Assembly: GCA_015956445.1 (NCBI GenBank)
Contig: WIUZ02000022.1
Coordinates: 614,600 to 678,599, forward strand
Length of the DNA: 64,000 nucleotides
Direction of reading: 5' to 3'
Source: Thelephora terrestris
Lineage: Eukaryota; Basidiomycota; Agaricomycetes; Thelephorales; Thelephoraceae
The translations under genes and the position numbers were made by a program. Position 1 is the first letter of the stretch. Every line of letters starts with the position of its first letter. Positions 35,886 to 63,067 of the stretch are shown one piece after another. The notes beneath the pieces are model-generated. The model saw only the letters and a list, made by a program, of their open reading frames with translations, ran no database searches and had not been told where the DNA came from.

Positions 35886-36569
35886 TGACCTGCCTCCGTT
35901 TCGCTGGCTGTCCGACTCGTACTATACCCCTAGCAACTCCAGCACCCTCCTCAGCTATCCACCCATACGTCGCGACGCAGCGCGAAGCCGCCTCCTCCCA
36001 CACGACCCCTTGTCGACCATCGCCAGTCTCCCAATAGTCTCGCGACCTCCCTCTCCTCTTGACTTCGACAAAATCCTCTAAGTCCACGCTCCGAGTCCGG
36101 CCTCCCCGATCCCACGTGCCACCCGATCGCTTCCGTTCTCCCACCTGACTTGACTCGCCTCGCCCCCCTTGTTCGTCATTGTTCGGATTCCCCCGCATCG
36201 GTCCGCCGTCCCGACTCCGGAACACGTGCCCCCCGCCCTCTTGTTGCATTTCGTCGCCGTCTCGACTGTCTCGCCGTGTTCCCCGCCTCCCGCCTGTTCC
36301 ACTCCGATCCCGCCTTGACTTTTCGGTTAGATCCTCCATTTCGTTGTCCCGTAGTTTCCCACGATACCTTCATTCTTCTCCCCACTCCTCCCGCCGTCTT
36401 GTTCGTCCTTCGCGCATTCTTGTTCTTCCCTCTGTTCCGCTCTTCGTTTTTGTATGACCTCCCTACGCCCTTCACGAACTTCACGATTCCCGCTCTCTCG
36501 CGACATTTGCCTTGTTATGTTTTGTTCTCCCTGCTTCGTGTTCTACCTTCAACCACTCTCTCTACCTAC

Positions 36570-36577
36570 TATATAAG
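36570..36577 (+). promoter_or_regulatory. TATA box of the Gypsy LTR
   Basis: TATATAAG in the LTR, repeated at 48378 in the 3' LTR. Transcription probably starts roughly 30 bp downstream, near 36600, defining the U3/R border. This is inference from spacing. Confidence 0.65.
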
Positions 36578-36701
36578 TGTCAGTAGACAGTCCTGGTTCG
36601 AATAACAAAGTGCAGTTCCCCCTTTCCCTCTAAAGTTCAACTCAGCCTTGCGCTGTCTAAAGCCTCCAACACTCTTCGTTCCTCGCGACCAAGTCCTCTT
36701 T

Positions 36702-36872
36702 GAGCGCAGTGCTCGAAGAACCCTCTAGCTTTTCTCTTTCCTCGTCTCGACTTCTCTCGACGTGAAGCGCAGTGCTTCTCGACCTTCTCTACTCGTCTCG
36801 CGAGCGCAGTGCTCTACTCCAGTCTTGAGCGCAGTGCTCAGCTCTTAGCTCTTCGTGGCGAACGCAGTGTTC
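36702..36872 (+). repeat. Five spaced GAGCGCAGTGCTC-type palindromes in the LTR
   Basis: The motif GAGCGCAGTGCTC and variants (GAAGCGCAGTGCTTC, GAACGCAGTGTTC) occur at about 36702, 36764, 36802, 36827 and 36860. When the arms vary, both sides change together, keeping complementarity. The set recurs in the 3' LTR at about 48510-48680. They lie in the transcribed leader and could form small hairpins or bind a protein. Confidence 0.75.
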
Positions 36873-37193
36873 ACCACCTCTACTAGTTTCTTCTCGTCTC
36901 AGGTATTCTCTCGTTCTCTCGTCTCGCGCTGATAGCTTCCTTCTTAGTCACCTATCCCGCCGCGACCCTCTTCGTCGCGACGCTTGTCTATTGAGACTCT
37001 ACTCTATCGCCACCACTTCCTATTCCCTCCCTACTTCTCCCTACTCCTCCCTACTTCTCCCTACTTCTCCCTACTCCTCTCTACCTCTACCTGCTCTACC
37101 CTACCGACGTCTGCACAACCGGTCACCCACACCCTTCAGCTCCCTCTTCTTGCTACGTGTTCCCACGACTTAGCGAGACTGGGTAGTTCATTT

Positions 37194-37212
37194 TGGAACC
37201 CACGCCGGGACC
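37194..37212 (+). other. Candidate primer-binding site
   Basis: TGGAACCCACGCCGGGACC starts 3 bp after the 5' LTR and begins with TGG, as expected for pairing with a tRNA CCA end. The tRNA was not identified. Confidence 0.45.
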
Positions 37213-37718
37213 GGTTCAGAACGTCACCTCCTTGTTAGAAGACATCAGTCATTCCCCGAGGACGTGCCACGAGCGCGCGTCATCAGCCTACTCGTCCTAC
37301 CCCAGTTCTTACTCGCGCTCGAGCTCACGAACTCGCGACTCTCTCCCGAGCCAGGGAAGATCTTCTCGTTGCCCAGATAGCTGCTGTTGAAACTCAGGAT
37401 ATCCTCACCGCCATCGATAACATCATCTCTGCCCGACAAAATTTGCCTGCCGCCACTTCTACTCCCCTCCCGCCTTCCGACTCTGAGGATTCACCTTTCA
37501 GCACCCCCCCTTCGTCTCCGACAGCAGCACACGACTATCTTCCCCCCTCTCCAGTTCTCGAGCCTATCTCGCATCCCACCTCTCCTCTATCGTCTGTAGC
37601 CCCGGATTCTCCTCTCATCTTGACACCAGCCCAGTTATCTCCCACCCTCCCACCCGTGTCACGACCAGAATCCCCCATCCCTCCCCTCGCGCCAATCGTC
37701 CCGCCACCAGTTCCAGCT

Positions 37719-40097
37719 ATGACTACAGTAAACATGCCTATGCCGGGCAACCGCGAGGCCCCCAAATTTTCAGACGATGCAGACTTCTTCGACGAGTTCT
37801 TTATCAATGTCGCAGAGCTCGCTGCTCGCGCTGGCCTCGCCGATAAGGATGCTATTCGATGGGCTATACGCTACGCAGGCCCAGAGAGTGCCTCTTGGCG
37901 CTACCTCCCTTCCGTTGTCGATGAGGGTAACCCCACGCTCAAGCAATTCCAGGCAGAAGTTGCTAAGTGTTACCCACATCTCGGTAGCGACCGCCGGTAC
38001 TCTAGAGGCGATATGCAGCGTCTCTTAGAGAGGACCCAGCGTCTCAACGACATGTCTCGCGACGATCTCGGACGATACTTCCGTCGCTTCGTTACCTACT
38101 CCACCTATCTCCTCCGAAGGAATCGTCTCTCCGAGCACGAGCGCAACGGGCTCTATCTCCAGGGCTTCCCTCTCGACGTTCGCCAGTCTATCAGGCGACG
38201 TCTCGCGATTAAGGTCCCCGACACCGTCCCGAGTGAGGGATACGAGTTCGACGACATTCACGAGGCTGCCTTGTTCGTCCTCGCAGACGAGGCTCAGCCA
38301 GCTACTACTACGATCGTGAAGCAAGAGCAGGACACCGTCGGCCAGCTCCTCCAGGCTGTCTCCGACCTCACCCGTGTTTTCACCTCCAATGCTCATACTC
38401 AGCGTCCTCGTACCCCTCCCGCGAATCCTCCCGCTCCTCGCTATCGCCCAGATACTCCTCGTCCCGCTCCGGGAGGAGCTTATCAGAGTACCCCCCGGTG
38501 GAACCCCCAGTCCGCACAACGCCCGGAGCCCTACCAGGCTCCACAGCGTTCAGATCACTACCAGCAGCAGTATCAGCAGAACTGCATGTTTTGTAGCGAG
38601 CCTGACCATTTCGTGCGCGACTGTCCACTAGCTCTCGAGTATATGCGCGACGGCAGAGTCATTCGCAACGACTTCGGGAAGATTGCGCTCCCAGACGGCC
38701 GATTCCCCCCTCGTCATATCCCCGGTAAGAACATGCGCGAGCGTGTTGACAACTGGTGGAACTCAGAAGGCATTCAACGAGAGGCTCCCGCCCCAGAAGT
38801 CGTTTCTACCCACTACCTGGAAACTCTCGACGAATGTATCTTCGAGTTTGACGTCTCTCCTCACGAGTCTTCGTGCAACTTCGCGAACTGTCCCGATAGC
38901 ACCGACAACACCGATGAGCAGCTCTCGATGATACAGGCTCAGATCGACTCACTCCGCGAGGCCCAGGTTCTTGCAGTCGAGAAGGGTTCCAAGAAGGTGC
39001 AGTTCGACGGTGTTGAGATCGCCAGGAGAGTCGGCCCTCCTAGGAGAGACGGTCGTCTCCCCACTCCTCCTCCCCCCAAGAGTCCCTCTGTGAACGTTCC
39101 CTCCTCTTCCTCCTCCCAGTTTCCCCCTCTCGCCCAGTCTCAGCCAGCTCCCGCTCCACTCCCGATCAGGTCTGCTCTTAAGCCATCTCAGCCCTCGACG
39201 TCCCAGCTCTCGACTTCTGAGCCCACTCCTCCTACCCCTAACGTCTTCGGAAGACCTGGAGTTCGCGCTGGAGCTCTCCCTATCCCACGTTCACAAGGAC
39301 CCATGCGTCCCGTCTCGATTCCCGCCAAGCCCACTGCCGAGGAACCTAAGTCCCGTTACCAAGCCGCCATCGAGACAGACGTTAACACCTCCGATATCGC
39401 CAATCGGGTGCTCGATGCGAAGGTAACCCTCAGCAGTCGCGAGCTTCTCGCTGTATCTTCCGACGTCCGTCGACATATGAAGGACCTCGTTACTTCAAAG
39501 AAGGTATCAGCCAACTTAGTGGAAATCGACGACGACGGCCTCCCGAACGGTGCTACGACTAGCGGTTCCCTCCCGTCTTCCGTCTACTTCGATCTCGTGA
39601 AGTACGACCCGGCTTCGTCTGCCGCCGCGGCCTCCCTACCTCTTCGCGTCATTCGTCCCACCTTCGCGCCCGGCGTTGAGCCCGAATGCATCCTCGACGG
39701 TGGAGCACAGATAGTAGTCATGCGAAAAGACATCTGGGAACGCATCAAAGCACCTATCGCAGCAAACAAGGCTATGTCCATGGAGTCTGCTAACTCCTCT
39801 AGGACCACGACTCTAGGACTCATCGAGAATCACCCGGTCAAGCTTGGACCTATCACGATTCACCTCCAGATCCAGGTCGTAGACGACGCTCCCTTTGAGG
39901 TTCTGCTAGGAAGACCCTTCTTTGACGTCGTGAACTGCTCGGAAGTCAGCCGTTCCGGCGGGAACCACGAGATCCACGTCAAAGACCCTAGCACCGGTAC
40001 TCCCTACGTCTTCGCGACGGAGCCTCGTCCTAATAGAGCCTCTTGCTGCCCTCCCGAGAAACACGGAAACGCACAGTCCGCAAATTTTCAACACTAG
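37719..40097 (+). CDS. gag: Gypsy Gag with C-terminal retropepsin-like domain
   Basis: The first in-frame ATG is 37719 (MTTVNMPMPGNREAPKF). The open frame continues upstream to about 37240 without an ATG and encodes a helical stretch (AREDLLVAQIAAVETQDILT), so a spliced or non-AUG upstream start is possible. Next come a capsid-like helical region, a Pro-rich linker and one CCHC zinc knuckle (CMFCSEPDHFVRDC) that would bind RNA. Near residue 660 is an aspartic-protease-like segment, ECILDGGAQIVVMRKDIW, with flap-side LGLIENHPVKLG and the second-half block FEVLLGRPFFD. Retropepsins normally read D-S/T-G; here it is D-G-G, which may reduce or abolish activity. The product forms the virus-like particle in the cytoplasm. 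Confidence 0.9.
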   Translation: MTTVNMPMPGNREAPKFSDDADFFDEFFINVAELAARAGLADKDAIRWAIRYAGPESASWRYLPSVVDEGNPTLKQFQAEVAKCYPHLGSDRRYSRGDMQRLLERTQRLNDMSRDDLGRYFRRFVTYSTYLLRRNRLSEHERNGLYLQGFPLDVRQSIRRRLAIKVPDTVPSEGYEFDDIHEAALFVLADEAQPATTTIVKQEQDTVGQLLQAVSDLTRVFTSNAHTQRPRTPPANPPAPRYRPDTPRPAPGGAYQSTPRWNPQSAQRPEPYQAPQRSDHYQQQYQQNCMFCSEPDHFVRDCPLALEYMRDGRVIRNDFGKIALPDGRFPPRHIPGKNMRERVDNWWNSEGIQREAPAPEVVSTHYLETLDECIFEFDVSPHESSCNFANCPDSTDNTDEQLSMIQAQIDSLREAQVLAVEKGSKKVQFDGVEIARRVGPPRRDGRLPTPPPPKSPSVNVPSSSSSQFPPLAQSQPAPAPLPIRSALKPSQPSTSQLSTSEPTPPTPNVFGRPGVRAGALPIPRSQGPMRPVSIPAKPTAEEPKSRYQAAIETDVNTSDIANRVLDAKVTLSSRELLAVSSDVRRHMKDLVTSKKVSANLVEIDDDGLPNGATTSGSLPSSVYFDLVKYDPASSAAAASLPLRVIRPTFAPGVEPECILDGGAQIVVMRKDIWERIKAPIAANKAMSMESANSSRTTTLGLIENHPVKLGPITIHLQIQVVDDAPFEVLLGRPFFDVVNCSEVSRSGGNHEIHVKDPSTGTPYVFATEPRPNRASCCPPEKHGNAQSANFQH

Positions 40098-41690
40098 ACG
40101 ATTCTGTACCGGCGAAGCATCCCGATACCCATCTTCCCCTTCGCTATCCTCCTCATCCCAGCCCCGCAGAATCGTCTTCCGTCCGTGTTTCCTCCCGTGG
40201 TCTTCCAGGCCATATACCCTCTTTCTCCTCCTTTCCCTCTCATCAGTTTCCCTCTCGTTCCTCGGTAGTTTCCTCTCCTTTTGACTCTTGTTCCTCTTCC
40301 AGTTCTTCCTTGTCTGTAGATTCTTCGCGATCGTCCCACTCTCCTCCAGTTCCTTCCCACTCTGTTTTCACTTTCTCTCGACTGTTTTCTCCTCCCGGTT
40401 CCGTTTCTCCCGCTTCGTTTTCTGTTTCCCCTGAGCATTCCCCTTTTACTTCCGCTTCCGTAGACATAGATTCCGTTTCTCTCCATCCCGTTTCTGTTGA
40501 TCATTACGTTTATCCTCCAGATACCCCCTCTCGCCCTCCTCCCGTTGACCCGCCGTCTATTCGCGCGACCTTCGAATCTAGTGCTAGTCCCCAGTCCCTG
40601 TCTCCCTACCCCGCTAGCTACTGACTACGCGAGCCGACGACCCCTCGATCGGTCACAGGGGTGTCACGCCCACTTGACGTCCCGATCATCAAACCGTTCT
40701 CGCGATCCCCTCGACGTGCGTCATCGCCTACTGCTTCCGCATCCGTGGCCGTCCTCCCCGAACGGCACATGACGTGTTGATCGGCCGATGCCTCCCGATC
40801 CCTTATCTCGTCGCGATGACGCGTCCCCTCCCCCGGTCCGGTTCCCTTCTGTCTAGACACGTGTCGACTCGTTCCTTCTCGCTCGCCAATCATCTTCGAC
40901 TGCTCCCGCTCTCCCGCCCGGTTACGATCTTTTGATCTCGAACCCGTAGACTTCCCCTTTTGGCTCTGTTTCTCACGATCGCTCCATCCTCTCGGTAAGA
41001 CCTGTCCCAGCCTCGTTCCGGCTTCCCGATGAACCGTTCGTCTCCCTACCCTGCGTCGGACTCTCGTTTATCCCTTTCTATCTACCTGTTCTTATTCTCC
41101 CACCGTTTCTCCATTTGTTCGCTACTTTTCTCATCTCTTTCGCGTAGATCGCACTGTCCCTACCTATAAATACCCTGTACTAGCTAGTTGAACGAACAAG
41201 AAACCGCTGGGCCTCTTCACACCTCTTCTCCCTTCTGCTTGAACGACCTGATCATCGAAAACCTCCAGCTCCTCGCTCTGACATCGATTCCACTAGCCCC
41301 ATAGTTCCAATAGACCCCTAGCCTACTAGCCCATCGTCATCGTCTAGCAGGAGTTTGCTAGTACGGAGTTCTCCCTTCTCGTCCCGACAACGTCGCGACC
41401 TACCGCGGCTCCCTCTCCTCTGTCTAGCTTCTCTCCCCTTCCCGACCTCTGCACAACCGGCGACCCCTCACCCCCACTTCTGCTATTCTGGTCGTGTCCC
41501 GACTCCACCCGGATAGTAGCAGTTCACCGTACCATTCTCGCGCGAGTGTCTCCCCACGAGCACGCAGTCCCCCGAGAGCCCACTTGTATCCTTTGTCTCC
41601 CTTCTCTCCACTTCCCCCTCTCGACGTACTCTCTCCTCTGCTCTCGCTACGCTCCAGGAAACACTCCCGAGCCCGTCTCCCGGTCCCCTC
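40098..41690. other. Spacer between Gag and Pol containing an LTR-like segment
   Basis: The gag frame stops at 40097, and the pol frame is recognisable only from about 41690. The segment about 40555-41526 is homologous to the separate repeat at 53197-54186, ends in AGTTCA, and contains TATAAATACCCTGTACTAGC near 41165. It resembles an LTR of a related family nested in this element. The Ser-rich open frame at 40043-40624 may be low-complexity coding or chance. Confidence 0.55.
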
Positions 41691-41879
41691 AACCAGTTCT
41701 CGGCTCTAAGCCAATGGTATACCGACCGTCACGCCCAGAGTCTATCCCCTCCCGACGACCCCTACCTTGCCTCAGCCTTCGCCTATAAGAAGGTAGCCAA
41801 TAAGACTCGACCCGTCGCGACCACCCTCCCCGAGAACTTCCGGATCACTCGTCGAGACCATCCCGATCCCCTAGCAGGC

Positions 41880-44800
41880 ATGCCCCCGCTTCCAACTCGT
41901 CCTCCCGACTTCGTCCCTACTGGTCGCCTCACCCAAGAACGACGAGACCAGATGGACTTAGGAAGAGATCTCCTTCTCCCTGAAGAAGTCAAGCTTGCTG
42001 AGTGGATCGTCTGCACCCACAATACCGCCTTCGCCTGGACCGACGAAGAGAGAGGTAGCTTTGACCCACAGTATTTCGCGCCAATTCAGATCCCCCATAT
42101 CTCGCACACTCCCTGGGTTCATCGACAAGGCCCTATCCCTCGCGGTATTCTGAACGACGTCATGAAGATCATCGAAGACAAGTGGAGATCTGGCGTCTAC
42201 GAGCCGTCCTCCTCCTCCTACAATAGTCGCTGGTTCTGCGTCTATAAGAAGGATGGCAAGTCTCTTCGTCTCGTTCACTCTCTGGAGCCCCTGAACGCTG
42301 TTACCATTCGCAACGCCGCTATGCCTCCCTACACTGACGTAGTGGCCGAGGACTTCGCTGCTAGGTCGATCTACACCACGCTAGATCTCTACGTCTCATT
42401 CGACCAGCGGCAACTCCATCCCTCCTCTCGCGACATGACAACGTTCAATACTCCTTTAGGTCCCTTTCGTCTTACAGTCCTCCCGATGGGCTGGACGAAT
42501 TCTCCTGCTGTTCTCCAAGGCGACATCACGCATATCCTCCGACCCGAGATCCCTCACTGCACTCAGCCCTTCGCTGACGACGTCCCGATCAAAGGTCCCC
42601 GCACACGATACGAGCTTCCCGACGGTACCTTCGAGACTATCCCCGACAACCCAGGCATTCGACACTTTGTCTGGGAGCATTTCGAGTCCGTCCACCGTAT
42701 CATCCAGCGTGTCAAAGCCTACGGAGCCACGTTTAGCGGCAAGAAAGCTTTCATTGGAGTCCCTCGCGCTGACATTCTCGGACACATCTGCACCTATGAC
42801 GGCCGTATCGCGGATTCCTCCCGCATTCGCGCTATCGAAAACTGGCCCGTCCCGACGAATGTCTCCGAAGTACGAGCTTTCTTAGGCACTTGTGGCGTCC
42901 TTCGTATCTTCATCAAGGATTACACCCTCATTGCCCGCCCGCTTATTCAGCTTACTCGCAAGGACGAACCCTTCGCCATCGGCCCCGAGCACCTCCAAGC
43001 CATCGCTACGCTTAAGTCAGCTATCGCGAACTCCCCCGCTCTCAGACCCATCGACTACGACTCCGAGAACCCCGTCATTCTCGCCGTTGACTCTTGCATG
43101 AATGGCGCCGGCTACATTATCTTCCAGATCGGAGATGATAAGAAGCGCTATCCTAGTCGATTTGGGTCTATCACCTTCAACGAGCGAGAGTCCCGCTATT
43201 CTCAGGCTAAACTGGAGCTCTATGGCCTCTTCCGCGCTCTGAAGCAGACGCAGCTCTACACCATCGGAGTCAAACGCCTTATCGTCGAGATGGATGCCAA
43301 ATTCATCAAGGGGATGCTCAATAACCCTACTCTCCATCCTAACGACGCTATCAACCGGTGGATTGCTGCTATTCTCCTCTTCGACTTCGAGCTCGTACAC
43401 GTCCCTGCCGAGAAGCATACCGGAGCGGACGGACTCTCCCGACGTCCTCGCGCTTCCGATGACCCCCTTCCCGACGAAGGTGACGACTTAGAAGACTGGA
43501 TCGACAGTCAATCTGGTTTCTTTATCGAGGCTACTTCCCCACCTTCTCTCTTCGACTCCGCACCACCTCTCTCCCTCGTCTCCTCCCACATAGCCACCGA
43601 AGATCCAGACCTCGATCCCGAGTCGTCCCTCTCCTCCTCCTTCCCTCCCGCTGAGAAAGCCGGCGAGATTCCCCGTTCCGAGAAGGCTCTGCGCCGCGAG
43701 GCCAAGCTCTCGAAGATCCGCCACTTTCTCACCACCCTCGAACGTCCGCCAGACCTCTCTGATCAGGAGTATCGACAGTTCATCCGACAGGCCTACGATT
43801 ACTTCATCTTGGACTCCCGCCTGTTCCGGAAACATCGAGACGGTTACTCCCAGCTGGTTCCCCCTCCCGACGCCCGCTACCCCCTCATCGAGTATGCTCA
43901 CGACAATCTCGGTCACAAGGGTGTCTTCGCTACGACTAGGAACTTGCTGATTCGCTTCTGGTGGCCCTTCCTCAACGAAGACGTTCGATGGTTCGTCAAG
44001 ACCTGCCGAGAGTGCCAGTTTCGTCAAACTGAGTACTTCTTCATTCCCCCTATGGTCCCCGACGTCCCTTCCCTCTTCCGCAAAGCCCACATCAACACGT
44101 TCCTTATGCCCAAGGTCGGGAACTACCGTTATGTCATCCATGCTCGCTGCGCGATGACTTCATATCCCGAAGGACGCGCTACCACCTCCGACTCCCACTC
44201 CGTTATCGCCGACTTTATCTTCCAGGACATCCTTTGTCGCTGGGGCGCTCTCGACGAGTTAGTCACTGACAACGGTACCGCTTACATCGCTGCCCTCGAC
44301 CTTATCGCTGCTCGCTATGGCATTCGACACATCCGCATCTCTGGCTACAACTCCCGCGCGAATGGCATCATCGAGTCCAAGCATTTCGACGTTCGCGAAG
44401 CCGTGATGAAGACCTGCAAAGGTAACGAGTCTAAGTGGCGTCAAGTTCTCCCTCTCGTGTTCTGGGCCGAGCGTGTTACCGTCCGCAAGGCTACTGGTTA
44501 CTCCCCCTACTATATGGTTCACGGTGTTCACCCCCTTCTCCCCTTCGACATTCTCGAGGCTACCTATCTTGCTCCCACTCAAGACTTCGGCGTTTCTACC
44601 GAGGAACTCATCGCCATCCGGGCTCAACAGCTCGCGAAGCGTCCCGAAGATCTCGCGACGATGCGCCAACTCGTCACCCAGTCTAGGATCAAGAACCTTG
44701 AACGGTTCGAAAAAGAGCACGCCTCCCGCATCATCGACTTCGACTTCAAGCCTGGAGCTCTCGTCTTAGTCCGCAACAACCGTATCGAGGAAGCCCTCAA

Positions 44801-45086
44801 CCGGAAGACCAAGCCTCGCTACACTGGTCCTATGGTTGTGGTCCGCAAGACTATCGGCACCTCCTATGTCATCGCCGAGCTCGACGGTTCCCAGGCTCAG
44901 CTTCGCGTCGCTGATTTTCGACTTATCCCCTACTTTCCCCGCACTCGCGCCATGGTTCCTATTGTTCCCGACGTTCTCGACGACGAGTTTGACTCTACCG
45001 AAGACGACCCCGAGGACACCCTGTACTTTGGCTCGTTGGACTCCGATTCCTCTACTTACATTCACTTGGACGCTCCCTCTTTATGA
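41880..45086 (+). CDS. pol: Gypsy Pol: reverse transcriptase, RNase H, integrase
   Basis: The first ATG is 41880, but conserved pol sequence starts upstream in the same frame (ALSQWYTDRH and AFAYKKVANKTRPVATTLPE, from about 41690), so translation must enter from further left. RT is marked by RSIYTTLDLYVSFDQRQ, LPMGWTNSPAVLQGD and the active site FADDVP. RNase H has VILAVDSCMNGAGYI, ELYGLFRALK, VEMDAKF and GADGLSRR. Integrase has the HHCC finger (AHDNLGHKG...CRECQ), then VTDNGTAY and GIIESKHF with 34 residues between Asp and Glu. Where related elements read HIDT, this copy reads HINT (AAC), so the first catalytic Asp is Asn. A GPY-like module (KPRYTGPMVVVRK) closes the integrase. Integration by this copy's own enzyme is doubtful. 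Confidence 0.93.
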   Translation: MPPLPTRPPDFVPTGRLTQERRDQMDLGRDLLLPEEVKLAEWIVCTHNTAFAWTDEERGSFDPQYFAPIQIPHISHTPWVHRQGPIPRGILNDVMKIIEDKWRSGVYEPSSSSYNSRWFCVYKKDGKSLRLVHSLEPLNAVTIRNAAMPPYTDVVAEDFAARSIYTTLDLYVSFDQRQLHPSSRDMTTFNTPLGPFRLTVLPMGWTNSPAVLQGDITHILRPEIPHCTQPFADDVPIKGPRTRYELPDGTFETIPDNPGIRHFVWEHFESVHRIIQRVKAYGATFSGKKAFIGVPRADILGHICTYDGRIADSSRIRAIENWPVPTNVSEVRAFLGTCGVLRIFIKDYTLIARPLIQLTRKDEPFAIGPEHLQAIATLKSAIANSPALRPIDYDSENPVILAVDSCMNGAGYIIFQIGDDKKRYPSRFGSITFNERESRYSQAKLELYGLFRALKQTQLYTIGVKRLIVEMDAKFIKGMLNNPTLHPNDAINRWIAAILLFDFELVHVPAEKHTGADGLSRRPRASDDPLPDEGDDLEDWIDSQSGFFIEATSPPSLFDSAPPLSLVSSHIATEDPDLDPESSLSSSFPPAEKAGEIPRSEKALRREAKLSKIRHFLTTLERPPDLSDQEYRQFIRQAYDYFILDSRLFRKHRDGYSQLVPPPDARYPLIEYAHDNLGHKGVFATTRNLLIRFWWPFLNEDVRWFVKTCRECQFRQTEYFFIPPMVPDVPSLFRKAHINTFLMPKVGNYRYVIHARCAMTSYPEGRATTSDSHSVIADFIFQDILCRWGALDELVTDNGTAYIAALDLIAARYGIRHIRISGYNSRANGIIESKHFDVREAVMKTCKGNESKWRQVLPLVFWAERVTVRKATGYSPYYMVHGVHPLLPFDILEATYLAPTQDFGVSTEELIAIRAQQLAKRPEDLATMRQLVTQSRIKNLERFEKEHASRIIDFDFKPGALVLVRNNRIEEALNRKTKPRYTGPMVVVRKTIGTSYVIAELDGSQAQLRVADFRLIPYFPRTRAMVPIVPDVLDDEFDSTEDDPEDTLYFGSLDSDSSTYIHLDAPSL

Positions 45087-45335
45087 ATCTCTTGTTATTT
45101 AATTTCTCAAGTTTTCTTTTTGGACCACCTTCACCTTATGTTTCCCCTTCCTATCCCTATATCTATCGTCTGACCCCATCCACTCGTTTGAAAATTTCTT
45201 TTTCTCTATGTTTCCCTCTCTTCGTCTTATGCCTCCCGATTTCTTTCCTATGCTTTTTCCGTCTTATCCCGGACTCATTTCTCTTTACTTATTCTTGCAG
45301 ATTGCGCTCGGACTGATCTTGTGACCGGGGACGGT

Positions 45336-45357
45336 CATGATTTCAGGTCCCGAGGAG
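45336..45357 (+). repeat. Upstream copy of the pre-LTR purine tract
   Basis: TTTCAGGTCCCGAGGAG here matches TCTCAAGTCCCGAGGAG immediately before the 3' LTR (47668-47693). In this family the tract should occur once, next to the LTR, as the plus-strand primer. The two copies bracket the antisense gene. Confidence 0.7.
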
Positions 45358-45758
45358 CCCCATACCCTCGCGAACGCGTGCGCTCGCAGATAGTGAGGTA
45401 ACTCTTCGTGAGACCCACTAGAGACACTACCTCGAGTAGTCGTCCTCACCCAATTTTTTCCTCGCTTTGCGACTGATCTTCGGATCTGGTCACACCGCAT
45501 GCTACTAACCTTACGTCGCGACTCGTCGCAACGCTCCCCCACTCCTTTAGCTTTCCTACCCATGCTTATCACTCCCCAACGACTCCCGATGACTTCACGA
45601 CTATCCCCCTATCTCTCCTATCTCATTCTCCCCTCTTCACGATATTTCAAAACCAAGAAAACTGACATCTATTCACGACACAACAACGGAGACACAGTAC
45701 TGCTGATAGTCCAAGAAATATGCGCTAATCGAACGTCCCGACCTTCCTCTCTCCATCC

Positions 45759-47500
45759 TCACTCATCCACCACTCCCTCGTCATCTTTCCCTCCCTCTTC
45801 ACCATCCTCTCCTCCCGCACTCCCCCCAGCCCCCGAATCGTCTCCCGCATCCGACAACGCCAAGTCGCTACCTTCCGGCGGAACGTCTGTCACGTACTCG
45901 AGGTCCGAGTCCTCGTAAACGCCCTCACCGCCGTCAGCGATGATCGCCTCGTTCAAAGCCGCGAGGATCTGCTTCCCGACTAAGCGACGATCCTCGACTC
46001 TCGCAACGACCTCGTTGGCGTCCGCACGTTCTCGACGCAGGATCGAACGAAGCTCGGTTCGTCTCAGCTGGAGATCGAATCTCGACTGTCCCGATCTTCC
46101 CGCCGCGTTGCCCAACGGAGCCAGGTCAGCGAAGAAGACCGTGGCGATGTCCGGAGGCATCACACCCCCCGAGACCGGCACCGGAGCCAGAGAAGACGTC
46201 CCTGCAGCTCCCGACCTCGTTCTAGTCGACACTGAGGGCGCGACGTCCCTCAGCATCAGCCTAGGCACCGTGACCGTCCCGACCTCCGACGTCACCGCGC
46301 TCTTCGAACGATGATTGAGGGCGTCCTTCTTGCGCTTCGCAATGCCGGCTTCCGAAGGCTCGACATTCGGCCACTTCGCGATCCCGAAGTCCTTCACCCC
46401 GAAGGAGCACTTCTTCTTCCAGGTGTCACAGGGCTTACACTTGACCCGCTGATCGACCCCAGGGTACCAGAGAGGAGTGCAGTTCCTCTGGCTCTTCTTC
46501 TTCCTCGAACAAAGACCGCAAACCTAGGAGGACGTTAGCACTCTCGCTACGGATTCGCGAACGACCCACTCACCGCCCCCACTGCGCGAGGTATGCGTTT
46601 CTCGTCCAACGGCTCGCCCTCGACAACGGTCTCCCCGCTCAGGTCCAATCCCGCGACCTCCTCCACCTCTGAATCGTCCGACTCGACCAGCTGAGCCCGG
46701 CGCGGTTTCTTCGACCTCTTCGTGGATTCCGACGGCCCCTCCTCCTTGCTAGGCGAACTCGAGAGCACCCGCTTCGTCCCGACGGATGACTCCACCGCCG
46801 CAGCAGTCCTCTTCTGCGTTGGTTTCGCCCTAGGCGGCACCACTACTTCAGGCTTCCCCTGAGCCCTCCTCTTCCCCTTGTTGATTCGCGATGGAGCCGG
46901 AGCGACCTCATCGTCCACCATCTCGACGTCCCCTGGTTCCGCAGCTGCTGGAGTCGGTCCCGTCAAGATCCCTGCACCCGACGCCGGCGTTGGCGTCCTC
47001 TGAGTCGTCCCTCCCGCCGTTGTTCCTGCCGTTGTTCCCGCCGAGTCCCCGAAGTCCGGAACCATGTGCGCCTCGATGTGCTCGATCATCTGGGCAGCCT
47101 CCGCAAAGTCCGTGACGAGTCGCAGTGGAGGGATGTGAAAGGCCCTACAAGCGTCCCGATGCCTTGTCTACCCTCGCGCTGGCTGTTAGCTTCCGCCTCC
47201 TAGCCCCTAGATGACGTCACTCACCAGCCACGCCGACAAATGATCAGCCCACGGTCCGCGTAACTCCTTCTCCTCCTCAAGGCGCAGCTCCATGGTCTTG
47301 AGGCGCCAAATCATCAGTACCGACTTCGAGACGATCTTCACGCAGTCGGGAGACCCCGCGATGAGTGGCCGGATTCGTGCCTTGTTCCATTCACTCTTCT
47401 CCTCTGGAAAGACTTCGTTTTCCTCAAGAAGATCGAGTTCAGCAAACGGCGCGATCCCGTTGGGTCCCTTCGACGGAGTCCAGTCATGAGAGTAGTCCAT
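45759..47500 (-). CDS. Antisense, intron-containing gene in the Gypsy element: cysteine-cluster protein
   Basis: Three exons on the strand opposite gag-pol: 47500-47225, 47167-46574 and 46523-45759, all with GT-AG borders and in phase, give 544 residues. The N-terminal exon has charged helical sequence (WNKARIRPLIAGSPDCVKIV; MELRLEEEKELRGPWADHLS). The middle exon is a disordered, Lys-rich region with acidic Ser patches (GKRRAQGK; TKRSKKPRRAQLVESDDSE), nuclear-localisation-like. The third exon opens with VCGLCSRKKKSQRNC and continues to VKCKPCDTWKKKCSFG, a CX2C...C...CX2CX5-6C pattern like the cysteine clusters of Agaricomycete Zn-cluster proteins, and ends very acidic. It starts about 190 bp from the 3' LTR, which may supply its promoter. 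It could be a captured host regulator or an element-encoded antisense factor. Function unknown. Confidence 0.72.
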
Positions 47501-47693
47501 TTGAAAGCGGAGGTGTTGTCGAGAGAGTTTGCGATGAAGAGAGACGATGATGTGGCAGCGAGAAGTTTTTCCTTTTTGTTTCGCGCACTTACCCCATCCG
47601 GACGCTTCGTGTCGACCTCGTGCCAGCCTCGTGTTCGCCTCGCGCCTTCCTCGTGGCAACCAGGGATGGTTGATATCTCAAGTCCCGAGGAGA

Positions 47694-48998
47694 TGACCTG
47701 CCTCCGTTTCGCTGGCCGTCCGACTCGTACTATACCCCTAGCAACTCCAGCACCCTCCTCAGCTATCCACCCATACGTCGCGACGCAGCGCGAAGCCGCC
47801 TCCTCCCACACGACCCCTTGTCGACCATCGCCAGTCTCCCAATAGTCTCGCGACCTCCCGCTCCTCTTGACTTCGACAAAATCCTCTAAGTCCACGCTCC
47901 GAGTCCGGCCTCCCCGATCCCACGTGCCACCCGATCGCTTCCGTTCTCCCACCTGACTTGACTCGCCTCGCCCCCCTTGTTCGTCATTGTTCGGATTCCC
48001 CCGCATCGGTCCGCCGTCCCGACTCCGGAACACGTGCCCCCCGCCCTCTTGTTGCATTTCGTCGCCGTCTCGACTGTCTCGCCGTGTTCCCCGCCTCCCG
48101 CCTGTTCCACTCCGATCCCGCCTTGACTTTTCGGTTAGATCCTCCATTTCGTTGTCCCGTAGTTTCCCACGATACCTTCATTCTTCTCCCCACTCCTCCC
48201 GCCGTCTTGTTCGTCCTTCGCGCATTCTTGTTCTTCCCTCTGTTCCGCTCTTCGTTTTTGTATGACCTCCCTACGCCCTTCACGAACTTCACGATTCCCG
48301 CTCTCTCGCGACATTTGCCTTGTTATGTTTTGTTCTCCCTGCTTCGTGTTCTACCTTCAACCACTCTCTCTACCTACTATATAAGTGTCAGTAGACAGTC
48401 CTGGTTCGAATAACAAAGTGCAGTTCCCCCTTTCCCTCTAAAGTTCAACTCAGCCTTGCGCTGTCTAAAGCCTCCAACACTCTTCGTTCCTCGCGACCAA
48501 GTCCTCTTTGAGCGCAGTGCTCGAAGAACCCTCTAGCTTTTCTCTTTCCTCGTCTCGACTTCTCTCGACGTGAAGCGCAGTGCTTCTCGACCTTCTCTAC
48601 TCGTCTCGCGAGCGCAGTGCTCTACTCCAGTCTTGAGCGCAGTGCTCAGCTCTTAGCTCTTCGTGGCGAACGCAGTGTTCACCACCTCTACTAGTTTCTT
48701 CTCGTCTCAGGTATTCTCTCGTTCTCTCGTCTCGCGCTGATAGCTTCCTTCTTAGTCACCTATCCCGCCGCGACCCTCTTCGTCGCGACGCTTGTCTATT
48801 GAGACTCTACTCTATCGCCACCACTTCCTATTCCCTCCCTACTTCTCCCTACTCCTCCCTACTTCTCCCTACTTCTCCCTACTCCTCTCTACCTCTACCT
48901 GCTCTACCCTACCGACGTCTGCACAACCGGTCACCCACACCCTTCAGCTCCCTCTTCTTGCTACGTGTTCCCACGACTTAGCGAGACTGGGTAGTTCA
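47694..48998 (+). repeat. 3' LTR of the Gypsy element
   Basis: 1,305 bp, TGACCTGCC...GTAGTTCA, near-identical to the 5' LTR. It follows a purine tract (CCCGAGGAGA) and is followed by CCGG, the target duplication. Confidence 0.96.
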
Positions 48999-49372
48999 CC
49001 GGTTAGGAGACTGTGATGTGACTGTCCACGTGTGTGATCAGAGTCCAGGGTTGGTCGTTATCGTGATGTCATGAATGAGTCATAAAGGGTCGTAAAGGGG
49101 TCGTCAAGGTCATGAGACCTATTTTTAGTGCGCGCGTGTTCTAGGCGTTCCGGAACAAAGTTCTTCCAAGGCCGTCCCGCGGGCCGAGGTGTCAGCTTGA
49201 TGTAGTAAGCCAACGATGATGGTACAGTGGCGGAAGTTGATGTGACCCGGACCAATGAGGTTTGTCGAGGTAGGTCACGTGAAGGATCACCGATCTAGGC
49301 TATAAGAAGGACGTCTTCTTGGAGCCATCCTTGATCAGCAATACCAGCAACTTCCCCATCATCTTACCAAAC

Positions 49373-51114
49373 ATGTCCTTCCCAAACAACCATACCTACA
49401 AAGTCGCTAATGGGATCTCCACCATCTCCCGCATCGACCGCCGTGCCGCCAACCGTAAGACCTATGCCAATGAGGCGGGGGTTCCCTATACCACTGATGA
49501 CCAGGTATGGGGGAGAGCTAGGGCTTTTTGTGTTTAGCACTAACTCCTTCCTCTAGGTAGAGGTTGTACATCATCGGCGTAGATGTTGAGCTAACAACTT
49601 CTAGATCTTGGAGGTCGTCAAGAAGGTGGACGCTGAACGTCTCAGGGAGACGATTCCTCATTTGATGGGGTTAACCTGGGACGATGAGCTTTGGGTTCGG
49701 TCGATGATCGCCGAGAAGGTGATCTTCCAGATGCGGGGTAGGTTCGGGGAATTGGAGCACCCGATCAAGAAGGAGCTTTGGTACACCCTGCAGCGGGGGA
49801 TCTACGATCAGGACCTGTTGGAGCACGGGGCCACCGTTCCTCGGGCTGTCCGCCATGCCACCGCTTCCACTACTCTGTTGTGGTCGCTCGTTCGAGAGGG
49901 GGAAAACCGAGTAGGTTTTCAGTTTGGATATTCGAGTATGACTCTCGATTAACCGAACGGCCTAGGTTGAACGCTTAGAGCGCGAGGTGAAGGAAGCGAA
50001 GGCAGACGTCCTTCGTTTGTCAGCGGAGGGTCTTCAGATGAAGGAGACTATGGCCGCCTTCCAGCAGGGGATGAATGAAGCGTTGGAAGCGATGGTTGCT
50101 AACCATCAAGAGTTGATCGCCGGGTTGAAGGTCAGGGACAACAATATCAAGGGGGCCTTGAAGAGGAGGGACGATGAGGTAGCTTTCCTCATCTCAAAGA
50201 CGAAATGAGGGAAGCTGACATCTTTCTCTAGACTGAACAACTCGAGGATTTGGTGTCCGTTTTGACGGCGCGGGTCGAGTCTTTGCAGGACAAGACCTGC
50301 AACTGCAAGGAAGGTCCTGTCTTGATTGGGCAGGGGACAGCCGACGTTCCATTCGAGTTGGAGTACGCCGACGAGGTGGTTCTCCCATCACCTAACCCTT
50401 CGTCCTACGCCACGCCTCCCGTGGAGAATGCGATTCCCGTTCCGACTCTGGCTCCGGCTTCTACTTTGGCCGAGTCAGACAAGGAGAACTGTGGTCGTTG
50501 CCCTTTGCAACCAGTCAGTCGACTGGTGAAGATCGAGGATGAGGTCATGGAGGTTGACCGAGCTGAGGATGCTCCGAGAGTGGTTGAGGTACGTCCGGTA
50601 ACGAAGGGGCAGCGTTGTAAACGCTCTCGTTACCGCAACGACCATCGTATGGCTCCCTCGGCTTACCCTTACCCTCGTCCAGTCGAGTCAGATGGTGACG
50701 CGTCTGATCGAGACCAGGGGCGATCCTTCCGATATAGGGTCAACCGTCCCAACCAACAGGTCGAGTCCGAGATCCAGCTCCGCCACCAGCTTCGCCTCGC
50801 ATGGCAGGATCCCACCCAGGGGAGTGATGAGGGAGACGGAGAATCACTCTTTGACTACGTCGACAGCGCTCCCGAGGGAACACCCGGTGATGGAGATGTG
50901 GGACGAGGTGTTCAGCAGTTCGGTGACATCTGGGAGGCTGATCGGTCCGCTCGAAGGCATCTCTTCCTATCGGCTTGAACTCGAGGTTCAGCTGAGCGCA
51001 GAAGATGGTGATGCCATGTTCGGGGAGGTCCTTGCGAGGAGGGGCCAGCACTACGATCTCCGGGATGGACAGTTGATGACCTTTAGGCCTGCCGTAGATA
51101 GAGTTGACTTTTGA
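49373..51114 (+). CDS. Unrecognised 479-aa coiled-coil protein, intact member of a TE-linked family
   Basis: Five exons (49373-49504, 49605-49910, 49966-50178, 50232-50588, 50683-51114), all GT-AG and in phase. It starts MSFPNNHTYKVANGISTI. Residues ~45-145 form a compact domain (LTWDDELWVRSMIAEKVIFQ; LEHPIKKELWYTLQRGIYDQ). Residues ~147-240 are a coiled coil (VERLEREVKEAKADVLRLSA). Then come an acidic/Pro-rich stretch (EYADEVVLPSPNPSSYA) and a conserved last exon (ALPREHPVMEMWDEV; VQLSAEDGDAMFGEVLARRG). I recognise no known domain. The fourth intron is supported by copy 1, whose conserved frame changes at the same place. A TATA-like GGCTATAAG lies at 49298. Copies share about 250 bp of 5' and 200 bp of 3' flank with it, as expected for a duplicated or mobile unit. 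It begins 375 bp after the Gypsy element. Confidence 0.75.
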
Positions 51115-51302
51115 GGATTTGTATAAGCATCGTATAGCCTAGTTGTTCCATATTGCCTTGAATGTATGCGCGTTTTGTGTATGTTGAATGATGGGGGTGA
51201 AGGATAAGGAGTGTGAAGCATTCAAACATAAGAAATGGTAAGAAGAGTTCGAAGAAAGAGCGTGTTATAAAAAGTTTAAAAATACCATGTTCCTGACAGC
51301 TA
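51115..51302 (+). other. 3' flank of the family gene, shared with copy 1
   Basis: About 190 bp after the stop are conserved in copy 1 (31499-31680 on the other strand), ending TACCATGTTCCTGAC at about 51297. Directly after this the sequence turns into the inverted truncated copy 3. Confidence 0.75.
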
Positions 51303-56430: not shown

Positions 56431-57165
56431 AGGACTGGAAGGTGAGTAGGGAAGAGTAGGGAAACATTGGGAAACATTGGGAAGGTCGGGAGACGTAGAT
56501 AACAAGATAGAACTAGATATAAGGATGACGACAAGAACTTTGGGATGTCGGGATCTTTGGAACGACAACGAGAACGCAGGGATGATGAGGAGGACGCAGG
56601 GACGCAGGGACGACGATGAGAATGATAGGGAAGACGAGGGAGGCTATAGGGAGACGACGACAACGAGTGGAGAGTGATAGGAGAGGAAAACATGGGAATC
56701 AGTCCCCTGGATTTGTCTGTTGCTAGTCTATTGAATACAGAGGCTTATATACTACTCTAGGAGGCTCTGAGAACAAAGGAAGCAAGAGGGAATGAACCAA
56801 ATGATGTCAAATGAACCAAATGATGAGTCCATGACATAGGAAGGGCAAGGGATCGAAAGGAACGATGGAGAAAGAGATGTGGTTGAGAAATGAACCAAAA
56901 GGAAGTGATTGAGCATAGGGATCAAGGGATCGAGGGAGGTGGTGTAGGGAGATGTCGCGAAGGTGTAGGGAAGTTGGGAAGAAATATAGGGAGGAGTCGC
57001 GAATGGTGTAGTGTCAGGAGGGATATAGGGAGGTTGGGGGGGGGTAGTGAGAGATAGGGAGCATAGGAATACGTCGGGAGAGTCGCGAAGCATCGGGATG
57101 AATAGGAAGTATAGGGAAGGGAATAGTGAGGTGGAGGGAGATATATGGATATGTAGGGAGATGAG
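56431..57165 (-). repeat. LTR-like repeat family 2 (copy at 56-57 kb)
   Basis: Homologous to the 52.6-kb copy (GAATACAGAGGCTTATATAC; CCATGACATAGG; TGTGGTTGAGAAA). Rich in GGGA-type purine runs and contains no gene. Confidence 0.6.
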
Positions 57166-57174
57166 CCCATTCAG

Positions 57175-57930
57175 CTACTTTTTCCCCATGACCCATGGCC
57201 GTACGGTGTGACAAAATCCCATGACCCATGGGCCATACGTCGCCGTATGACAGGTACAAATCCCCATGACCCATGGACCGTACGATGGTGTGTGGGCCCC
57301 ATGACCCAGGGTTGTACAGTGCTGTATGACAGTATGGCCTGTCCATGACCCATGGGTTGTACGATGCCATACGGTGGTATGCCCTTCCCATGACCCATGG
57401 GCCATACGGTGGTGCTGCGACAGCCATCCACCCTGCCCATGACCCATGGGGCGTACAGTTGCCGTACAGTGGTATGCCTACCCATGACCCATGGGTTGTA
57501 CGGCGCCGTACGGGGGTTTGCCCTACCCATGACCCCCAAGGACCATACGGCACCGTACGACAGTATGCCCTGCCCATGACCCATGGACCGTACGGCACCG
57601 TACGACAGTATGCCCTGCCCATGACCCATGGAGCGTACGGTGCCGTACGGTGGTATGCCCTGCCCATGACCATGGAGCGTACGGCGCCGTACGGGGGTTT
57701 GCCCTACCCATGACCCATGGACCATACGGCACCGTACGACAGTATGCCTGCCCATGACCCATGGAGCGTACAGTGCCATACGGTGGTATACCCTACCCAT
57801 GACCCATGGGTCGTACAGTGCTGTATGGTGGTATGCCCTATCCATGACCCATGGAGCGTACGGCCATACAGTGGAATGCCTTGCCCATGGCCCATGGGTT
57901 GTACAGTGCCGTACAGTGGATTACCTTGAA
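57175..57930. repeat. Minisatellite of ~60-bp palindrome-rich units
   Basis: About 12-13 units, each with CCCATGACCCATGG followed by a CGTACGG...CCGTACG inverted repeat and GTATGCCCTGC. Units vary mainly in the GTACGG segment. The same units appear reversed at 62330-63060. Confidence 0.9.
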
Positions 57931-57934
57931 AGAA

Positions 57935-58255
57935 TATTTAATGGATTACCTAATAAGGAACTATATGATGGATTACCTAAAAAAGAAATATTTGATGAAT
58001 TACCTAAAAAGGAAACATTTGATGAATTACCTAAAAAGGAAAATTTGATGAATTACCTAAAAAGGAAATATTTGATGGATTACCTAAAAAGAAAATATTG
58101 ATGCATTACCTAAAAAGAAAATATTTGATGGATTACCTAAAAAGGAAATATTTGATGAATTGCCTAAAAAGGAAATATTTGATGGATTACCTAAAAAGAA
58201 AAATTTGCTTGACTGCCTAAAAGAGAAATAGTTGATGGATTACCTAAAAAGGAAA
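57935..58255. repeat. 27-bp tandem repeat
   Basis: Units like GATTACCTAAAAAGGAAATA (27-bp period) repeat about 12 times. Inverted copies lie at 59570-59830 and 62222-62320. Confidence 0.9.
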
Positions 58256-59275
58256 TATCTGATTGATTCTGGAAAACAGCAACCTCCTAACCTAACCTCA
58301 AGGCACTGCCAGGTCAGGATCCATTCACCTCTTGCATTATTTTCTGTTTGTAGTCCTGACTAACCCAAAGTGGTTAAGCTAACATCATCCAATCTAACCT
58401 AACCTAACTCAATTCAACCTAACCTAACCCAACCCTCACCTACCTAACCTAACCGTAACCTAACCTGACATAGCCATCTAACCCATTTCAACCTAACCTA
58501 ACCTGCAGTGGTCTATCCACCTGACTATAGCTTTGCCTAGCTGACCCATGACAAACAAGTCCTGACTTAAACTTGACCTTGCCTAGCACACCAACAGGTA
58601 ACATGGGTTACAGGAATGCAGTGCAAAGTGCATACCCCTTGGGGGACTCCACTTGTATTTAGCCATAAGCTGCTATCACTTGAACACACCTACTAACCTG
58701 GACCTACCAGTTGGTGGGACCTGCAAGCCAAAAGGTCCTTGGACTGGTATTCCATAAAAGATCCTGCCACTCAATTACCACCAACCACATTCACAAAACA
58801 TCTCTTGCCCAGCCAAACTCAGCAACAACTCAAATTTACCTACCTGACCAGACCCAGAATCCGCTGGGTGTGTTCCTCCACATTACAGGCCCACAGACCT
58901 ATAGACTTATGAATTAATGAGCCCACTGGGTCATAGGTTCAGCCAGGTGGATTGGCTTTATTTGTCATCAAGTTAATATCTGGTACAAGAGAGGTGAATA
59001 TGGTTGGGTGCAGGCACAGCTTAGGGAATATAGTCCATGGACCTGTTGGCTTGCAGGTCTACCAACTGGTAGGTCCAGCTTAGTAGGTGTGTTCAAATGA
59101 TAGCCAGCTTATGGCTAAATACAAGTGGAGGTCCCCCAAGGGGTATGCACTTTGCACTGCATTCCTGTAACCCATGTTACATGTTGGTGTGCTAGGCAAG
59201 GTCAAGTTTAAGTTAGGACTTGTTTGTCATGGGTCAGCTTAGGCAAAGCTATAGTCAGGTTGGATAGACCACTGC

Positions 59276-59400
59276 AGGTTAGGTGAGGGTTGGGTTAGGG
59301 TTAGGTTAGGGTTAGGTTAGGTTAGGTTAGGTTAGGTTAGGTTAGGTTAGGTTAGGTTAGGTTAGGTTAGGTTAGTGAGGGTGGGTTGGTTAGGTTAGGT
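59276..59400 (+). repeat. TTAGGT hexamer array
   Basis: A run of GGTTAG units, with a few TTAGGG, inside the right palindrome arm; the left arm has a shorter, degenerate counterpart (58400-58510). Confidence 0.9.
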
Positions 59401-59881
59401 TGAATTGAGTTAGGTTAGGTTAGATTGGATGATGTTAGCTTAACCACTTTGGGTTAGTCAGGACTACAAACAGAAAAATAATGCAAGAGGTGAATGGATT
59501 CCTGACCTGGCAGTGCCTTGAGGTTAGGTTAGGATGTTGCTGTTTTCCAGAATCAATCAGATATTTCCTTTTTAGGTAATCCATCAACTATTTCTCTTTA
59601 GGCAGTCAAGCAAATTTTTCTTTTTAGGTAATCCATCAAATATTTCCTTTTTAGGTAATTCATCAAATATTTCCTTATTAGGTAATCCATCAAATATTTC
59701 TTTTTTGGGGAGATCCATCAAATATTTCCTTTTTAGGTAATTCATCAAATATTTCTTTTTTAGGTAATCCATCATATAGTTCCTTATTAGGTAATCCATT
59801 AAATATTCTTTTTGAGGTAATCCACCGTACGGCACCGTACAACCCATGGGTCATGGGCAAGGCATTCCACTGTACAGCGCG

Positions 59882-62219: not shown

Positions 62220-62221
62220 CT

Positions 62222-63067
62222 CCTTTTTAGGTAATTCATCAAATATTTCTTTTTTAGGTAATCCATCATATAGTTCCTTATTAGGTAATCCATTAAATAT
62301 TCTTTTTGAGGTAATCCACCGTACGGCACCGTACGACCCATGGGTCATGGGCAGGGCATACTGTCATACGGTGCCATACGCTCCATGGGTCATGGGTAGG
62401 GCAAACCCCCGTACAGCGCCGTACGCTCCATGGGTCATGGGTAGGGCATACCACCGTACGGCACTGTATGACCCATGGGTCATGGGCAGGGCATACTGTC
62501 GTACGGTGCCGTACGCTCCATGGGTCATGGGTAGGGCAAACCCCCGTACAGCACCGTACGCTCCATGGGTCATGGGCAGGGCATACCACCGTACGGCACC
62601 GTACGCTCCATGGGTCATGGGCAGGGCATACTGTCGTACAGTGCCGTACGGTCCATGGGTCATGGGCAGGGCATACTGTCGTACGGTGCCGTATGGTCCA
62701 TGGGTCATGGGTAGGGCAAACCCCCGTACGGCGCCGTACAACCCATGGGTCATGGGTAGGGCATACCACTGTACGGCGCTGTACGCCCCATGGGTCATGG
62801 GCAGGGTGGATGGCTGTCCAGCACCACCGTATGGCCCATGGGTCATGGGAAGGGCATACCACTGTACGGCATCGTACAACCCATGGGTCATGGACAGGCC
62901 ATACTGTCATACAGCACCGTACAACCCATGGGTCATGGGGCCCACACACCATCGTACGGTCCATGGGTCATGGGGATTTGTACCTGTCGTACGGCGACGT
63001 ATGGCCCATGGGTTATGGGATTTTGTCATGCCGTATGGCCCATGACCCATGGGGAAAAAGTAGCTGA
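62222..63067. repeat. Second copy of the palindrome right arm
   Basis: It begins with the 27-bp repeats (duplicating 59735-59830), then minisatellite units, and ends GGGGAAAAAGTAGCTGAA, the inverted match of the left end at 57171. It thus supplies the right terminus missing at 59880. Frames stay open across it in several directions because unit lengths are near multiples of three. Confidence 0.8.

Follow-up and report, generated by a model that had tools for sequence, protein, structure and literature searches.

The window, a 64,000-nucleotide stretch of the Thelephora terrestris genome, contains at positions 35886–48998 a Ty3/Gypsy-type LTR element. Its two LTRs are 1305 bp each, lie at an offset of 11808 from one another and show 2 mismatches between them. 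The LTR termini are TG..CA, and the outer flanks of the element both read CCGG, as in a short target duplication. Apart from the Pfam domains listed in Table 1, the gag–protease frame gives a weak match to a zinc knuckle, below the cut-off. In the pol frame, PF17917, PF17919 and PF17921 score above the cut-off and the reverse transcriptase (RT) model PF00078 just under it; RT and RNase H precede the integrase zinc domain, which is the Ty3/Gypsy order, and no catalytic integrase model is among the Pfam matches to this frame. The initial annotation had missed a solo LTR that interrupts the gag-pol of this copy. The solo LTR has CCGT on either side (40542–40545 and 41527–41530), and its first 276 bp share 98% identity with the LTR start in locus L041. 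Copies of the element on contigs C58, C23 and C24 are without it. The 3′ flank of the C24 copy is 100% identical to that of the window, so this copy probably represents the window locus on a second contig. That contig starts inside the element, and its stretch adjoining the solo-LTR insertion site is only 93–98% identical; the absence of the solo LTR there may stem from the assembly, with a contig edge possibly misassembled inside the element. The solo LTR (41437–41526) and the element's own LTR (48907–48998) have a similar 3′ end despite belonging to different subfamilies.

Table 1. Features of the Gypsy element and its antisense gene (window positions)
Feature	Position	Strand	Remarks
5′ LTR	35886–37190	+	TG..CA, CCGG flank
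gag and aspartic protease ORF	37239–40097	+	PF13352, PF13975 and PF13650 above cut-off
Solo LTR of RT87 type	40546–41526	+	981 bp, inside gag-pol frame
pol ORF	41520–45086	+	RT, RNase H, integrase zinc domain; first codons fall within solo LTR
First hairpin	45322–45337	+	TGACCG-GGGA-CGGTCA
First tract copy	45342–45357	+	TTCAGGTCCCGAGGAG; C15:659941–659956
Exon 3	45759–46523	−	six-cysteine cluster, C-terminal part, stop codon
Intron 2	46524–46573	−	50 nt, phase 0
Exon 2	46574–47167	−	RHRD motif, low-complexity and basic stretch
Intron 1	47168–47224	−	57 nt, phase 0
Exon 1	47225–47500	−	ATG at 47500
Upstream box	47579–47608	−	30 bp, 79–108 bp before ATG; candidate promoter; common to relatives outside Gypsy elements
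Second hairpin	47657–47672	+	CAACCA-GGGA-TGGTTG
Second tract copy	47677–47692	+	C15:662276–662291; one base ahead of 3′ LTR; presumed plus-strand primer
3′ LTR	47694–48998	+	inferred U3/R border ~48400–48420, ~20–40 bp past TATATAA

Between pol and the 3′ LTR, the minus strand carries three in-phase exons separated by two introns, and the coordinates given for them in the initial annotation hold. The joined exons comprise 1635 nt, corresponding to 544 residues and a stop codon, and both introns start with GTGAGT, contain an internal GCTAAC and end with TAG. The same gene is present in lineage B, which includes the C58 copy, as distinct from lineage A, the window element; the three C58 exons show 77%, 69% and 80% identity to those of the window (80% over 228 residues). 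Inspection of further copies, which the initial annotation had called for, revealed that they are not all broken. Four of the ten A/B loci examined hold a full-length gene (544 residues in the window and on C24, probably one locus, and 548 on C58 and C14). The defective ones comprise a frameshift on C13, a gene split by insertions on C45, two genes cut by contig ends, and those on C23 and C12, which stop at 323 residues and have an insertion close to where exon 3 begins. In the RT87 subfamily the gene is full length at five of eight loci (606–608 residues); one of the remaining loci is without a matched second intron, and of the two without a matched start, one is truncated by the end of the locus.

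Comparison of the A and B genes yielded a dN/dS of 0.291 by the Nei–Gojobori method (0.221–0.377 in 300 bootstraps), with 85, 75 and 166 substitutions at the first, second and third codon positions, respectively. When the matched A/B codons were read in all six ways, the gene frame alone was stop-free; the other five readings gave dN/dS values of 0.42–1.56 and 3–22 stops per sequence. All sense frames contain stops, which rules out the explanation, considered in the initial annotation, that the antisense frame mirrors a sense-strand coding region. The genes of RT87a and RT87b have a dN/dS of 0.322. From these substitution patterns, the three-exon antisense gene looks to be under purifying selection.

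The encoded protein had been credited with a cysteine-cluster motif, and alignment of nine exon-3 sequences bears this out: six cysteines (C2, C5, C15, C29, C32 and C39) are invariant in all nine, and P17, W19 and F41 are shared along with them. The six cysteines are present in 13 of 15 family models, the models arrB and C19a being without the cluster; the first-triplet spacing is 6 only in C19b and TE83X and 8, 9 or 11 in the others, with a linker of 13–18. For comparison, the Zn2Cys6 consensus is C-x2-C-x6-C-x5..16-C-x2-C-x6..8-C. Among solved structures, the best match of the cluster profile is AlcR (PDB 1f4s), with an E-value of 4.2e-5 summed over two partial stretches, the better of which reaches 0.0025; with the whole of exon 3 as query AlcR scored only 1.1, and a profile of exon 1 had no match among solved structures. 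AlcR, the activator of the ethanol regulon, is a Zn2Cys6 protein with a long linker. It resembles the present cluster in its C-x2-C..C triplets, its long linker and the [ST]F that follows the second triplet, whereas here the cluster lies mid-protein, the first triplet is spaced by 6–11 residues and a Pfam match is lacking. Pfam and NCBIfam searches of the protein returned no match of weight and no zinc-cluster Pfam model. Viral contigs searched with exon 3 gave nine pattern matches, with no relative among them.

Within the same genome, matches were found at no fewer than 52 places with exon 3, at least 79 with an N-terminal query and at least 97 with the RT. In the A/B and RT87 elements the gene lies antisense downstream of pol, as judged by eye from the coordinates. 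In subfamily X, with 83% RT identity, the gene of the one element modelled (L048) is much diverged and has kept two phase-0 introns at the same sites as well as the cysteine cluster. The slot, orientation and exon structure are thus common to three RT subfamilies, namely A/B, RT87 and the single modelled X element; these show the pattern termed aORF-3R, an antisense frame between pol and the 3′ LTR in most copies, and subfamily Y does not. In the one RT49 element examined, whose LTR was not located, no relative of the gene occurs within 4 kb past pol. Separately, stretches like window positions 49300–51300, with short open frames, occur at about 40 places or more at 83–90% identity (40 of 647 candidates scored), and similar frames adjoin an RT64 element (L050). 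Window positions 57014–63067 contain long repeats, direct as well as inverted, in which open frames recur periodically on both strands (for example PWVMGRAY and HGSWAG).

Relatives of the gene with the same introns also occur at places without an RT match. The largest group is an array on C1, where four genes were modelled, one of them without the cluster; the array is repeated on C23 at 99.6% and partly on C16 and C8. Other such relatives include a pair on C19 and single genes such as that on C6. At the DNA level, the C1 array resembles the element in the gene alone. On its left, the array block begins abruptly at about C1:2634202 (L033), and its first 94 bp recur at other loci. Judging from these recurrences, the block of at least four family genes (C1, C23, C16 and C8) may itself be mobile.

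Some of the relatives also share a candidate promoter with the element. The upstream box of the window matches that of lineage B at 25 of 30 positions and those of the four array genes at 19–22, each value being equalled by none of 500 single-base shuffles; the matches to RT87a (17/30) and RT87b (16/30) were equalled by 9 and 56 of 500. The lineage B box agrees with RT87a at 20 and RT87b at 19 of 30 positions (0 and 1 of 500 shuffles). Box copies within one subfamily are not independent, and the informative matches are those between subfamilies and to the array. The box was absent upstream of five of the 12 other genes tested (X, C19a, C19b, C6a and C12a). Over 40.6 Mb, a 15-bp core of the box has 12 exact matches, of which 11 adjoin listed matches to the gene and one (C59) adjoins an RT match only, as assessed by eye. 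Allowing one mismatch gave 14 matches, at least ten of them at loci of the gene family, the other four being at C1:2018388, C8:171862, C56:2311724 and C58:1216054; the core pattern read backwards, as a control, had five. As a possible target of the protein the box was sought in U3 and not found; within the window it occurs only at the gene itself.

Comparison of the window with the C58 copy in 250-bp bins revealed that the element is a mosaic. Identity is 98–100% over 39000–45249, the solo LTR aside, remains at 97% to about 45508 and then falls to 75–89% through the gene and U3; in the C14 copy it drops to 95–98% in part of gag. By region, A and B are 77–83% identical in the exons, 92.5% in intron 1, 77.6% in intron 2, 88% upstream of the gene, 100% over the hairpin and tract, 77.6% in U3 and 98.4% in R–U5. 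The silent divergence between A and B is 0.016 in pol versus 0.535 in the gene, and that between RT87a and RT87b is 0.135 in the RT versus 0.959 in the gene. These alignments show that the history of the gene and U3 is not that of gag-pol and R–U5. In retroviral replication, both U3 copies derive from the 3′ end of the RNA and U5 from its 5′ end. A single template switch near 45508 accounts for the pattern on this basis, and the changes of identity near 45,508 and at U3/R are what would be expected if reverse transcription had switched once between co-packaged RNAs; the point at about 48400–48420, shortly past TATATAA, where identity rises again would mark the U3/R border. Intron 1 and the stretch upstream of the gene (47501–47693, 88–100%) are more alike between A and B than the exons. 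A template switch does not account for this conservation, for which constraint is one possibility.

The initial annotation also reported a purine tract both after pol and before the 3′ LTR, and two copies are indeed present, each as part of a duplicated module of about 36 bp that includes the hairpin. Searched with up to two mismatches, the tract pattern has 92 matches versus 51 when read backwards, so isolated weak matches carry little meaning; the exact and one-mismatch matches, however, fall in pairs at elements. Eight A/B and four RT87b elements have the gene flanked by both copies, and pairs were also found in RT87a. At the six X-type pairs, the gene was modelled at one (C15) and weakly matched at one more (C2). 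As the initial annotation had suggested, related elements without the insert were checked at the tract: in subfamily Y, which lacks the gene, the element ends in twin tracts, 56 bp apart in the copy analysed, the second one base before an LTR that is 99.9% identical to the 5′ LTR. The Y-type pattern has 61 matches versus one backwards, and 48 of them form 24 pairs spaced 54–56 bp. Eleven of these pairs lie within 4.5 kb downstream of a listed RT match, as judged by eye. A more distant RT64 element has a single tract before its LTR. The hairpin is found at both tracts in A/B and RT87 and at the second tract only in X; the first tracts of X and Y are without it and stand outside the 11 aligned hairpin rows. 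In these rows, which are related, 98.5% of cells are paired versus 4.5–49.2% when the alignment is slid, and three of the six pairs show changes on both sides; covariation exceeds that of all 500 shuffles, and the count of pairs with both-side changes was equalled in 177 of 500.

The remaining 13 of the 24 twin-tract pairs (C1:750339, C10:471799 and others) have no listed RT match within about 15 kb upstream, which suggests that a group of non-autonomous elements shares this 3′ module. On the minus strand of the window, positions 61477–61545 represent another twin-tract 3′ end, in which the tracts are spaced by 54 bp, a stretch resembling a hairpin precedes the second and a likely LTR start follows directly; as no RT is among the listed matches on its upstream side, it is perhaps a non-autonomous relative.

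The twin tracts can be read in more than one way. They may have been in place before the gene was inserted between them, or may be what its loss left behind. Rather than a scar of capture, the first tract might be a working second start of plus-strand synthesis, like a central polypurine tract, a reading that we regard as tentative and somewhat doubtful. The two copies of any one subfamily agree in their core variant (CTCGAGG in RT87 and CCCAAGG in Y) and otherwise differ slightly, and the first-copy hairpin of A/B and RT87 has been kept while differing from the second by compensating changes. Yet common variants might also reflect descent or homogenisation, the first tract is not a long pure purine run and has one change of its own in A, and the first copies in X and Y are without the hairpin. 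As to where the gene came from, it may belong to another mobile element, the family on the repeated block having been loaded into the Gypsy elements or exchanged with them. The recurring array block with its sharp left edge would fit such a source, as would the gene tree, in which the A/B genes group with the array genes (88/95), apart from the RT87 genes, with modest support and long branches. Against it, no inverted copy of the left edge was found in the 13.4 kb searched, and A and RT87a differ as much in the RT (silent divergence 1.73) as in the gene (1.61), which favours common descent, albeit with both values near saturation; on balance we consider this origin unlikely. Forcing all Gypsy-borne genes into one clade was disfavoured (p-AU 0.027, or 0.036 without X), in a tree with long branches and with groups named after the matches were known; the family tree excludes the degenerate models C12a, C6b and C4b and keeps arrB and C19a despite their missing cluster. 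The RT protein tree has an unresolved base, and the RT DNA tree joins X with Y (87/89) without rejecting a topology that holds the gene-bearing elements together (p-AU 0.133), so the RT trees do not decide between gain of the gene and its loss in Y. These results are compatible with one capture followed by exchange as well as with several captures. Because the array block is itself repeated, we do not take the array as a settled, simple host source.

The gene might also be a mere passenger, a host gene caught by chance together with its promoter and useless to the element. There are indeed relatives outside Gypsy elements that have the same introns and the upstream box, and subfamily Y manages without the gene; nevertheless, its retention in one and the same position across three subfamilies, at a dN/dS of about 0.3 and where no other open frame is kept, makes this quite improbable. 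Alternatively, the antisense unit could act as RNA, forming dsRNA with the genomic RNA, and its reading frame would then be incidental. Such a role has been discussed for antisense transcripts of other elements in the accessible part of one report (PMC7264820). However, the excess of third-position changes, the dN/dS of 0.29, the invariant cysteines and the kept splice sites favour a role at the protein level, and we hold an RNA role to be very improbable.

The reading we prefer, to which we assign a probability of about 0.6, is that of a Ty3/Gypsy-type element with its own reverse accessory transcription unit between pol and the 3′ LTR, predicted from the sequence to encode a spliced, DNA-binding regulator. 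In this putative model, the antisense gene would be transcribed from the integrated copy and spliced. The introns probably persist through cycles of retrotransposition, since in the genomic RNA they are present only in the reverse orientation. The predicted protein would enter the nucleus, bind DNA via its Zn2Cys6-like cluster and regulate the element or counter host control of it. Because the gene sits next to U3, the two would stay together when gag-pol is swapped. A bolder extension, which we put forward as speculation that is unlikely to hold in full, is that the twin-tract modules form a 3′ cargo slot of the clade and that this slot was loaded more than once, in antisense, with intron-containing genes from a single DNA-binding family together with their promoters; gene and U3 would then make up one exchangeable cassette of regulator plus target, which template switching combines with new gag-pol backbones.

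LTR elements are known to have antisense accessory genes, for which an explanation is lacking. The present clade offers material for testing: elements with and without the gene, empty twin tracts, relatives outside elements, a candidate DNA-binding domain and a candidate promoter site. It also illustrates how a gene with introns could be carried by an LTR element over many cycles, and hints at a reason for the position of such genes beside the 3′ LTR, where linkage to U3 is kept when elements recombine. Mosaic elements arising by recombination among family members are described in the available text on recombining LTR retrotransposon families (e.g., PMC5668417); unlike in the cases described there, the part exchanged here is a 3′ block of antisense gene and U3.

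A literature search, with most subscription papers beyond reach, found no intron-bearing antisense gene between duplicated tracts. The initial annotation knew of no fungal case of an antisense gene in a Gypsy element, which has to be corrected. According to the accessible parts of two reports, Boty/BcGypsy1 of Botrytis cinerea is a fungal Gypsy element that likewise has an extra antisense gene between pol and the 3′ LTR (PMC7264820), named brtn and attributed to Zhao 2011, Virology (PMC8365987). The former, as far as its available text goes, describes antisense ORFs at this place in plant elements, namely Grande gene23, RIRE2, Retand and PvRetro13, and also names Boty. The plant genes resemble the present one in position, orientation and presence in most copies; Grande gene23 is equipped with a promoter of its own and encodes a nuclear protein, and the plant proteins show no clear similarities except an SMC domain in PvRetro13 and a transposase-28 domain in Retand (PMC7264820, accessible part). 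The two introns, the six-cysteine cluster, the relatives outside elements and the paired tracts set the present gene apart from these plant cases as described there. The element is thus of an ordinary kind and antisense accessory genes as such are already known; its own accessory gene is unusual and well conserved.
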